Positions 59,049 through 62,533 of a DNA stretch of 64,000 nt are shown here, in pieces; within the stretch, counting starts at the first letter, position 1, and the number at the start of each line of letters is the position of its first letter. The stretch spans positions 186,001 to 250,000 of the forward strand of contig NZ_CP030127.1 in the NCBI RefSeq assembly GCF_003568845.1, given 5' to 3'. The notes below the pieces were generated by a model. It was not told the origin of the DNA, made no database searches, and saw only the letters and a list, made by a program, of their open reading frames with translations. The stretch is from Indioceanicola profundi (GTDB lineage Bacteria; Pseudomonadota; Alphaproteobacteria; Azospirillales; Azospirillaceae). The position numbers were made by a program, and so were the translations under genes.

Positions 59049-59867
59049 TCAAGCCGCGATGCCTTGCCCGCGCAGGTAACGCGGCCCGGGCTTCGCATGG
59101 CGGAAATGCCCCGACATGGTGTGGCGGGCCGCCTCGTAGGCGGTCCATTCGCTGCCGTCCTGGAGCGGCGGAATGGTCACCACCTCGCCGGCATCGAAGC
59201 CGGCCAAGGCCGCATCAACCATGTCCTCGGCGGACATCACCATGTCGGCTGGAAGATTGCCGTGGCCGCCAACGCTGGCGACATCCCAGAACTCCGTCGC
59301 CGTCGCTCCCGGCAGCACCGCCTGCACCCGCACGCCCTTGTCGGACAGCTCATGCTGGAGCGATTGGGTCAGCGCCAGTACATAGGCTTTGGTCGCGCCA
59401 TAGACGCCGTTCAGGATTTCCGGCCCGATGGCGACGATGGAAGCGATGTTGATGATGGCTCCCTGACCGCGCGCGACGAAACCTGGGGCCGCCGCATAGG
59501 TCAGCCGCGTCAGCGCGGTCACGTTCACCCCGATCATCTCCTCCATCCTGTCCACGTCGGACTGGAGCAGCGGCGCCGCGGAGCCGAAGCCTGCATTGTT
59601 CACCAGAAGCGTCACGCTGGCAGTCCGGCGCAGCAGCTCCTCCACATGCAGAAGGTCGTCGGTCCTGTTCAGGTCGGTGCTGATGACGTTGACCGCCCGT
59701 CCGCTCGCATCGGTGACGCGCTTCGCGACCTCCTGCAGCCGCGCGGTGTTCCGTGCGACAAGGATCAGGTCATAGCCGCGCTTGGCCAGCCGGTCCGCAT
59801 AGATGGCGCCGATGCCGGTGGACGCGCCGGTAATCAGGGCGGTGCCCTTGGGTTCATAGGTGCTCAT
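59049..59867 (-). CDS. SDR family oxidoreductase
   Basis: 272 residues. Short-chain dehydrogenase: TGASTGIGAIYADRLAKRGYDLILVARN (in parts), NNAG at VNNAGFGS, the catalytic serine in NIASIVAIG and YGATKAY for YxxxK, with C-terminal RYLRGQGIAA. The subfamily is often linked to aldehyde or ketone handling. AAAGGAGAA precedes the ATG. It is divergent from the GlxA-type regulator across a 107-bp gap holding a long inverted repeat. Confidence 0.9.
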   Translation of the reverse strand: MSTYEPKGTALITGASTGIGAIYADRLAKRGYDLILVARNTARLQEVAKRVTDASGRAVNVISTDLNRTDDLLHVEELLRRTASVTLLVNNAGFGSAAPLLQSDVDRMEEMIGVNVTALTRLTYAAAPGFVARGQGAIINIASIVAIGPEILNGVYGATKAYVLALTQSLQHELSDKGVRVQAVLPGATATEFWDVASVGGHGNLPADMVMSAEDMVDAALAGFDAGEVVTIPPLQDGSEWTAYEAARHTMSGHFRHAKPGPRYLRGQGIAA

Positions 59868-59911
59868 GATCGTTCTCCTTTACGCCCCCAGCGGGCGTTG
59901 AAGAGAGATTA

Positions 59912-59973
59912 GCCTTGCTCCGGCATGGCGGAAATGTCATCGTTGCGTCGTTTTCTGCCATCCGGAGCAAGGC
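59912..59973. promoter_or_regulatory. long inverted repeat spanning the GlxA-type gene's ribosome binding site
   Basis: GCCTTGCTCCGG at 59912-59923 is exactly complementary to CCGGAGCAAGGC at 59962-59973. The arms extend inwards, with one or two interruptions, to about 59934 and 59952, giving nearly 22 paired bases around a 17-base loop. The right arm includes the GGAGCAAGG ribosome binding site of the gene starting at 59975. It could act as an operator for the divergent genes or as an RNA hairpin that hides the site. Confidence 0.6.
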
Positions 59974-59974
59974 G

Positions 59975-60934
59975 ATGCGCAAAGTCGGCTTCATCCTCTA
60001 TCCCGGCTATTCCCCGATGGGCTTCGCTGTCAGCACCGCGTTCGAGGTTGCGAACCTGCAGGCTGGGGAGCCGGTCTATGACGTGCGCATGCTGTCCGAG
60101 CATGGCGGTCTGGTGCGCACCTCGCTCGGCTTCGACGTGGCGACTGAGCCGTTCTCGGGCGACCACTACGATCTGCTGGTCGTGGGCGGCAGCATGCAGG
60201 AGGCATCGGCGGAAACGGTCGAGTTCATCCGCCGCGCTCCAGGGCATTGCCGCAGGATCGCGGCGACCTGCCTTGCGGCCTTTGTGCTGGCCGAAGCCGG
60301 GCTGCTGGACGGGCGGCGCGCGACAACCCATTGGATACGGGCGCGCGAGCTTCAGGCGCGCTATCCCAAAGTCCGGGTGGAAGAGGACCGTATCTTCATC
60401 GCCGACGGGCCGGTCTGGACATCGGCCGGAATGACGGCAGGCATCGACTTGGCGCTGGCCTTGATCGAGGAGGATCTCGGGCTGGAGGCGGCGCGCAACG
60501 TGGCGCGCAAGCTGGTGCTCTATCACCGCCGTGCCGGCGGCCAGTCGCAATTCTCCTCCCTGCTGGAGCTTGAGCCCAAATCGGACCGCATTCAGAGCGT
60601 TCTGACCTATGCCAAGGGCCACCTGTCCAATCGGCTGAGCGTGGAGGAACTGGCCGAGGTCGCGCACCTCTCGCCCCGCCAGTTCAGCCGCGCTTTCCAG
60701 ACCGAAACCGGCCAGACGCCGGCCAAGGCCATCGAGCATCTCCGGCTGGAGGCGGCGCGGGTCCTCATGGAAGATACCAGCCACACCATCGATGTCGTGG
60801 CACAGCAGACCGGCTTTGCCGACCGGAACAGGATGCGGCGCGCCTTTCTGCGCGCGTTCGGTCAGCCGCCCCAGGTGATCCGCCGCGCTGCGCGCGGCAT
60901 GGCGGCGGTTGCGGAGGATCTGGCCGAGGCCTGA
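59975..60934 (+). CDS. GlxA-family AraC-type transcriptional regulator
   Basis: 319 residues from the ATG at 59975. A DJ-1/PfpI-like amidase domain occupies residues 1-175 (FILYPGYSPMGFAVSTAFE; ATCLAAFVLAEAGLLDGRRATTHW, in parts, with the nucleophile-elbow cysteine). A double AraC helix-turn-helix follows at about 215-310 (LSVEELAEVAHLSPRQFSRAFQTETGQTPAKAIEHLRLEAARVLM, in parts). Such regulators commonly control aldehyde or small-molecule oxidoreductases next to them; here the SDR gene is divergent. The start is preceded by GGAGCAAGG, contained in the long inverted repeat. Confidence 0.93.
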   Translation: MRKVGFILYPGYSPMGFAVSTAFEVANLQAGEPVYDVRMLSEHGGLVRTSLGFDVATEPFSGDHYDLLVVGGSMQEASAETVEFIRRAPGHCRRIAATCLAAFVLAEAGLLDGRRATTHWIRARELQARYPKVRVEEDRIFIADGPVWTSAGMTAGIDLALALIEEDLGLEAARNVARKLVLYHRRAGGQSQFSSLLELEPKSDRIQSVLTYAKGHLSNRLSVEELAEVAHLSPRQFSRAFQTETGQTPAKAIEHLRLEAARVLMEDTSHTIDVVAQQTGFADRNRMRRAFLRAFGQPPQVIRRAARGMAAVAEDLAEA

Positions 60935-60989: not shown

Positions 60990-61532
60990 TCAGACCGCCA
61001 GGGCGGGCGCCTTGGGGAAGTCGATCTCGGTGCCGCTCAGATTGTTGGTGTAGTTGGTGAGGATGTTGGCGACCACGTTCGCCAATACCTCCAGCACCTC
61101 ACCATCGCTGAGGCCGGCGGCACGGGCCTTGTCCAGTTCCGCCGTGGCGACCCGGCCCCGCTCGGCCACGATGGCCTGGGCCAACTGGACGATGGCGGCG
61201 GCACGCGGGTCCGCCGAGCGGCCCTGGCGGGCGGCCAGGATTTCATCCTCCGGAAGGCCGGCGAACTTGCCGCTGTAGCTGTGGGCCGACAGGCAGTACT
61301 CACAGCCGTTCACCTCCGCCACGGCCAGGGCGATGCGCTCACGCTCCTTGGCCGACAATGTGCCAGCGGCGATCGCCTGGTTGACGGCGAGATAGGCGTT
61401 CAGCGCCGCCGGAGCCTGGGCCAGGGTCGCCAGCGCGTTCGGAACCTTGCCCAGTTTGGCGCGGATGGCGGAAAGCTGCTCGGCTACGGCGGCCGGGGGA
61501 TTGTTGCGGTCAACAGGAGCAATGCGAGCCAT
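60990..61532 (-). CDS. AhpD-like / carboxymuconolactone decarboxylase family protein
   Basis: 180 residues from the ATG at 61532, preceded by AAAAGGAG at ideal spacing. AhpD-like core with the redox pair CEYC in VNGCEYCLSAHSYSGKF; further ALAVAEVNGCEYC and VLEVLANVVANILTNYTNNLSGTEIDFP (in parts). The family gives peroxidase or isomerase activity through the CxxC. It is divergent from an AraC-type regulator and probably regulated by it. Confidence 0.92.
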   Translation of the reverse strand: MARIAPVDRNNPPAAVAEQLSAIRAKLGKVPNALATLAQAPAALNAYLAVNQAIAAGTLSAKERERIALAVAEVNGCEYCLSAHSYSGKFAGLPEDEILAARQGRSADPRAAAIVQLAQAIVAERGRVATAELDKARAAGLSDGEVLEVLANVVANILTNYTNNLSGTEIDFPKAPALAV

Positions 61533-61628
61533 GGTCTTTCTCCTTTTCATGTGCCGGCAGCGCTCTCGCCGCCGGTTCTGAAAGGAAATATGCGCTACGG
61601 TCTGCGACAGCGTGTCCGAGATGGTTTG

Positions 61629-61644
61629 CAGATCGTCCAGATCG
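61629..61644. promoter_or_regulatory. direct repeat between AhpD-like and AraC-type genes
   Basis: CAGATCG at 61629-61635 and again at 61638-61644, nine bases apart, 47 bp before the AraC-type gene start. Tandem direct half-sites are typical of AraC-family operators. Confidence 0.35.
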
Positions 61645-61690
61645 CGATAGCTTCGCGGCTCTTGAACCAATGATCGGGGAGACCGGAGCG

Positions 61691-62533
61691 ATGCCGGCCG
61701 ACCAGCACGCCGCCTCTCCCGCCCTTGACCGGCTGGCGGCCATGTTCGCCCGCGTCCATCTCACCGCCCGCGTGTTCCAGGCAGGTGCGTTCTGCGGAAT
61801 AGGTGAGATGAGCGGCAGCGGGTCGGCGGGCCATCTTCATCTGCTGCGGGCGGGTCGCGTGATGGTGGAGGGGCCTCATTCCCGGCAAATCCCGCTGGAG
61901 GGGCCGGCCGCCGTCCTTTTTCCGCGGCCGGCCGCGCACCGGATCGTCGCCGGGGATGGGACGGTCGATCTCGTCTGCGCCGAAATCTGGCTGGGCGGGC
62001 CGGGCAATCCGCTTGAGCGCGGCCTGCCGGACCTGCTGCATCTGCCACTGGAGCCCGGCGACCAACTGGGCGGCGCGCTTTCCCTTCTGTTCGGGGAGGC
62101 GGGCGGAAGCGGCTGCGGCAGGCAGGTCATCCTGGACCGGCTGGCGGAGGTGGCGCTGGTCTATCTGCTGCGCCACGCAATGGCCCGTGCAGGGCAGGAG
62201 CCCGGCCTGCTGGCGGGACTCGGCCATCCGGCGCTGGCGCGCGTGCTGACCCGGATGCATGAGGACCCTGCTGCCCCCTGGACCCTTGAGCGGATGGCGG
62301 AGGTGGCCGGCATGTCCCGGTCCGCCTTCGCAGAGACCTTCAGAACCGTGGTGGGGCAGACGCCCGGCACCTATCTGCAGGGCTGGCGCCTGCAACTGGC
62401 GCGCGCCGCTCTTTCCGCCGGCCGGACCCTTAAACAGGCCGCCCGCGAGGTCGGCTATGACAGCCATGCCGCGCTGTCGCGGGCATTGTCGCGTCGGAAG
62501 CCGGCTACGGTGACCGAAGCCATCTCCGGCTAG
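61691..62533 (+). CDS. AraC-family transcriptional regulator with cupin-like N-terminus
   Basis: 280 residues from the ATG at 61691 (GGGAGA upstream); an in-frame ATG at 61670 is less likely. The N-terminal 150 residues fit the AraC_binding/Cupin_6 sensor (GAFCGIGEMSGSGSAGHLHLLRAGRVMVEGP, in parts). Two helix-turn-helix units occupy residues 180-275 (WTLERMAEVAGMSRSAFAETFRTVVGQTPGTYLQGWRLQLARAAL, in parts, then AAREVGYDSHAALSRAL). It is divergent from the AhpD-like gene and likely activates it in response to an oxidant or aromatic compound. Confidence 0.92.
   Translation: MPADQHAASPALDRLAAMFARVHLTARVFQAGAFCGIGEMSGSGSAGHLHLLRAGRVMVEGPHSRQIPLEGPAAVLFPRPAAHRIVAGDGTVDLVCAEIWLGGPGNPLERGLPDLLHLPLEPGDQLGGALSLLFGEAGGSGCGRQVILDRLAEVALVYLLRHAMARAGQEPGLLAGLGHPALARVLTRMHEDPAAPWTLERMAEVAGMSRSAFAETFRTVVGQTPGTYLQGWRLQLARAALSAGRTLKQAAREVGYDSHAALSRALSRRKPATVTEAISG

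Follow-up and report, generated by a model that had tools for sequence, protein, structure and literature searches.

The DNA between two divergent genes of Indioceanicola profundi, one encoding a short-chain dehydrogenase (SDR) on the minus strand and the other a transcriptional regulator on the plus strand, carries a long inverted repeat that reaches into the ribosome binding site of the regulator gene. Such a repeat may act in RNA, as a hairpin that hides this site, or in DNA, as the operator of the regulator, and the original prediction had put forward both. We asked which of these roles the locus supports, within a stretch of 64,000 nucleotides that was analyzed as a whole (the window).

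The inverted repeat and its neighboring genes

The outermost parts of the repeat, GCCTTGCTCCGG (59912-59923) and CCGGAGCAAGGC (59962-59973), are 100% complementary over 12 bp and lie 38 nt apart. Inside these arms C59924 is unpaired, A59925 then faces T59961, and TGGCGGAAA pairs with TTTCTGCCA with one G-T, which continues the repeat by about 10 pairs beyond the 12 perfect ones. Folding of the RNA from 59890 to 59990 gave -48.9 kcal/mol (z -3.94), a value equaled by none of 200 shuffled sequences. The repeat is thus present as described, and its position between divergent SDR and regulator genes was also correctly given. The right arm does include the ribosome binding site, GGAG at 59964-59967, 7 nt upstream of the ATG at 59975. 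The window contains six cases of arms with at least 12 perfect pairs and a loop of 3 to 60 nt, against a mean of 0.5 in six Markov shuffles, and the outer arms by themselves are therefore not unique there. What distinguishes them is the conserved inner element that they flank. As for the prediction of a single 22-bp repeat, the pairing is real, but the repeat consists of two layers by comparison with homologous loci: an inner 35-bp candidate operator (59926-59960), and outer 12-bp arms that were unseen in relatives. An origin of the arms as the end of a mobile element is unlikely, as the arm 12-mer has only these two copies in its own genome.

The start of the regulator gene was set at ATG 59975 because homologues align from that residue; the program-made open reading frame begins upstream, at TTG 59915. 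The protein combines an N-terminal DJ-1/PfpI domain (PF01965, 56.1 bits for a cut-off of 26.6) with a C-terminal AraC helix-turn-helix domain (PF12833, 76.8 bits for a cut-off of 33.6), the architecture of DJ-1/PfpI-AraC regulators. It had been named "GlxA-type," and it is this domain architecture that our test covered. Its best NCBIfam match is FtrA (NF006902, 205.9 bits, residues 31 to 306), far under the curated equivalog cut-off of 425, and on this score the identification as FtrA was rejected. The genome (5.37 Mb in 4 contigs) also encodes a 66% identical paralogue of the regulator. Downstream, at 61670-62533, lies a gene for a second AraC-type regulator (Cupin_6 and HTH_18 domains), divergent from an AhpD/CMD-like gene at 60990-61670.

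Table 1. Coordinates of the observed and predicted features of the locus
Feature	Position	Strand	Remarks
Candidate 35-bp operator TGGCGGAAATGTCATCGTTGCGTCGTTTTCTGCCA, inner inverted repeat	59926-59960	+	Top matrix match in 64 kb
Outer left arm	59912-59923	+	Within the spacer of the predicted SDR promoter (59912-59928); carries the predicted -35 of the regulator promoter
Outer right arm	59962-59973	+	Contains GGAG (59964-59967); columns weakly conserved
SDR promoter, predicted -10, TAATCT	59906-59911	-	Exactly 14 nt from the candidate operator
SDR promoter, predicted -35, TTTCCG	59929-59934	-	Within the candidate operator; spacer of 17
Regulator promoter, predicted -35, TTGCTC	59915-59920	+	At each CTTG column (59914-59917), 18 of the 20 other loci share the base
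Regulator promoter, predicted -10 position	59938-59943	+	CATCGT here, a weak match, putative; CATATA in 12 of 20 other loci
Regulator, DJ-1/PfpI domain and AraC-type HTH	59975-60934	+	319 residues plus stop
SDR gene, proposed target	59049-59867	-	Open reading frame and domain match

Conservation of the inner element and its distance from the predicted promoters

The comparison covered the upstream regions of 81 homologue rows, of which 69 had an identity of at least 47%. A first set was obtained by four filters, an identity of 60%, a site score of 15, a length of 35 and a start between -60 and -40, which gave 21 rows; after removal of L057, the same record as L002, and addition of L108 by hand, it comprises 21 loci including the window, two of which (L051 and L053) are near twins. 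The remaining 48 rows form the second set, for which the site score threshold of 15 was chosen by the analyst. The thresholds that define both sets were fixed after the sequences had been viewed. Among 385 genomes of the class, drawn evenly, only one other had a match to the regulator at an E value of 1e-140 or better.

The site is found upstream of the regulator gene in several genera, including Sphingomonas, Acidisoma, Rhizobium, Ancylobacter and Caulobacter, with its 3' end 11 to 23 nt from the start codon across the 21 loci. It is kept in L002, L051 and L053, where the divergent gene, judged by eye, resembles a membrane transporter rather than an SDR gene. No site scoring at least 15 was found in 18 of the 48 homologues of the second set. 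A conservation matrix built from the 20 loci other than the window placed the site at 59926 first in the 64 kb by 26 bits, with a score of 26.9 against 0.8 at the next best place. The training loci themselves score 40.9 to 66.2 bits, and the window copy is thus a divergent member of the group. It departs from the others at its center, where 59941 is a C instead of the A of all 20 other loci, and carries TGGC/GCCA, whereas most other loci have TGTC/GACA. On the minus strand, TGNC half-sites spaced 21 bp apart can also be read. The 14-mer of the left half-site, GCATGGCGGAAATG, recurs at 59095-59108, within the 3'-terminal part of the SDR gene, and five exact copies of the 12-mer ATGGCGGAAATG were listed genome-wide, the one in the candidate operator among them.

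The base is identical in the window and all 20 other loci at columns 59929, 59933 to 59936, 59938, 59940, 59949, 59953, 59957 and 59959. Two pairs of symmetric conserved columns, 59929/59957 and 59933/59953, are complementary in 21 of 21 loci. At the conserved columns 59935, 59936, 59937 and 59940, by contrast, the mirror column is complementary in only 5, 2, 0 and 0 of the 21 loci. As several strongly conserved columns hardly pair, it is the sequence itself that is kept, and not pairing alone.

The search pattern has zero mismatches at the window site. Allowing up to three gives two places in the genome, and the reversed pattern used as a control also matched once, so that by count the second place is only suggestive. 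This second site (C2:1089705-1089739, L107) has two mismatches and scores 43.4 bits with the matrix. It has the orientation of the window site, precedes another SDR gene by 106 nt and carries TATGAA at offset 14; a gene with sigma-70 domains borders it on the other side. When the pattern was made stricter, no more than 4 of the 82 genomes in the order had a match, and none matched its controls.

Conservation extends to the distance between the site and a putative -10 box. On the SDR-facing side, TA occurs exactly 14 nt past the site in 20 of the 21 loci, the exception being L046 at 15, and all 21 have a hexamer that starts with TT within the site, 17 nt upstream of the -10 place. In the second set, 30 of 48 homologues have a site scoring at least 15, and TAnnnT is found at offset 14 in 26 of these; L031 (the own-genome paralogue), L085, L070 and L009 lack TA there. 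Of the other offsets counted (8 to 13 and 15 to 18), only 15 and 16 had TA in either set, with one case each. In the window the box faces the SDR gene. Nineteen of the 30 sites, by comparison, are turned round, and 18 of these have the box, then on the regulator side, so that the spacing follows the site and not the gene; 17 of the 19 come from one genus and are not independent. At L084, L087, L089, L099 and similar loci of one genus, this module faces the regulator gene and stops some 90 nt short of the start of that gene.

AraC-type class II activators bind a site that overlaps the -35 element, next to the polymerase. The site at 59926-59960 has this geometry, being placed over the -35 and at a fixed spacing from the -10 of the target, both of these promoter elements being predicted. 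The constant 14 nt is the spacing that an activator bound beside the polymerase would require. Twelve of these 14 nt are occupied in the window by the left outer arm. Toward the regulator gene, each base of TTG (59915-59917) recurs in 18 of 20 loci, and 12 of 20 have CATATA 17 nt further on; these elements likely form the regulator promoter, with a predicted start near 59950. A scan of 59800-60050 for sigma-70 consensus promoters and terminators found nothing.

Conservation of the site and its fixed distance from the -10 box support the proposal of a DNA operator between the divergent genes. Very probably it belongs to the adjacent regulator, which would activate the SDR gene and repress its own, with binding, activation, autorepression and transcription starts all deduced from sequence comparison. 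A dimer of the regulator would bind the 35-bp site. As the site overlaps the predicted -35 of the SDR promoter and sits 14 nt from its -10, the bound protein, presumably with a ligand, may recruit RNA polymerase to the SDR gene in the manner of class II activation. Within the predicted regulator promoter, the site likewise spans some of the spacer together with the -10 and the start, and binding would therefore also repress the regulator gene.

The outer arms and alternative readings

The outer arms behave differently from the inner element. All 12 of their positions pair in the window, compared with a mean of 3.6 of 12 (range 2 to 5) in the 20 other loci, against an average of 3.8 in 420 control combinations of arms from different loci (a single combination reaching 10 of 12). 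Perfect runs in the remainder of the 21-row first set reached 6 at most, whatever the register. The exact two-arm pattern was absent from 81 other genomes of the order and present in the own genome alone (1 of 82). As far as these searches reach, the outer stem appears to be particular to this genome.

These data bear directly on the proposal of a hairpin in RNA, according to which a regulator mRNA starting upstream of 59912 would fold, hide the ribosome binding site and limit translation. If the sequence is transcribed from the left arm on, its fold reaches -42.2 kcal/mol with the ribosome binding site fully paired, and that site is also largely paired in L002 (0.99), L050 (0.91), L061 (0.88) and L051 (0.83). 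However, a functional RNA stem should be kept in relatives through compensating changes, whereas the outer stem occurs in 1 of 21 loci, the window itself, and several of the most strongly conserved columns of the inner element seldom pair with their mirror columns. In addition, the left arm holds the predicted -35 of the regulator promoter. As the predicted start near 59950 is downstream of this arm, the regulator mRNA should be without it, and a transcript from that start leaves the ribosome binding site about half paired (0.53). Rfam gave no match up to an E value of 1 in 59700-60100. The hairpin is therefore a very improbable basis for regulation, and this half of the original prediction did not hold. 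Equally improbable is the notion that the arms now have a function of their own, with transcripts reading through from upstream folding into a very stable hairpin that hides the site, and only those that begin within the operator, where the regulator controls them, being translated. If true, a single palindrome would combine an operator with a block of translation.

How the arms arose is a separate matter, compatible with an operator at 59926-59960. They may be the functionless product of a template switch during replication that started at the pre-existing palindrome of the operator, an origin that we regard as an open contender, with doubt slightly outweighing belief. According to one study, template switching can generate perfect stems and can also repair mismatches in stems that are already there (PMC8794818). 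The restriction of the exact arms to 1 of 82 genomes of the order and to none of the 20 other loci fits such an event, as does the left arm, which retains the CTTG common to most relatives. On the other side, the unpaired C59924 breaks the repeat, and chance may also account for the arms, given the one cross-locus combination in 420 that reached 10 of 12. We regard the arms as an unusual but probably incidental extension outside the conserved element.

The conserved site itself might instead serve another regulator, such as the 66% identical paralogue or the Cupin-AraC protein encoded at 61670-62533. A paralogue does exist, and the second site in the genome lies about 6 kb from it. Against this, the site stands upstream of this regulator gene in several genera, also where the divergent gene differs, which makes control by another protein unlikely. 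An operator of the adjacent regulator is the reading that we retain.

Relation to known regulators

The predicted arrangement resembles that of CdhR and GbdR of Pseudomonas aeruginosa. CdhR, a GATase1-type AraC regulator, is described as protecting 34 bp with GGTCGC half-sites and a 15-bp spacer, its gene being divergent from the target (PMC5806209). The likeness lies in the divergent target, the 34-bp protected region, the 15-bp spacer and the regulation of the own gene (PMC5806209), and the TGNC half-sites on the minus strand of the window site, 21 bp apart, have the same period. The CdhR sites are described as direct repeats located upstream of the promoter (class I), whereas the window site has inverted-repeat symmetry as well and lies over the predicted -35.

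The best match to a solved structure for the DNA-binding part of the regulator was AdpA of Streptomyces (3w6v, E 1.2e-11). The window half-sites agree in part with the AdpA box, TGGCSNGWWY (PMC8653842, PMC5840217), at 9 of 10 and 7 of 10 positions; decamers drawn at random match it at 4.3 positions on average and at 8 or more in 1.3% of cases. AdpA is presented as a master regulator whose box is degenerate, whereas the pattern found here occurs, at up to three mismatches, at two places in the genome, both before SDR genes (one match for the reversed control). GliR was set aside as a parallel because its motifs differ (PMC8151288). Searches of the open literature turned up no study that links SDR genes to an operator of GlxA-type regulators.

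Judged from these comparisons, 59926-59960 is probably an operator of a known kind. Its alignment yields a testable operator/promoter rule, a 35-bp site followed after 14 nt by TAnnnT, which may apply to a group of DJ-1/PfpI-AraC regulators present in many proteobacteria. The whole module was found facing either the neighboring gene or the regulator gene. The locus also illustrates how a conserved operator may resemble an RNA switch once it carries its own extension.
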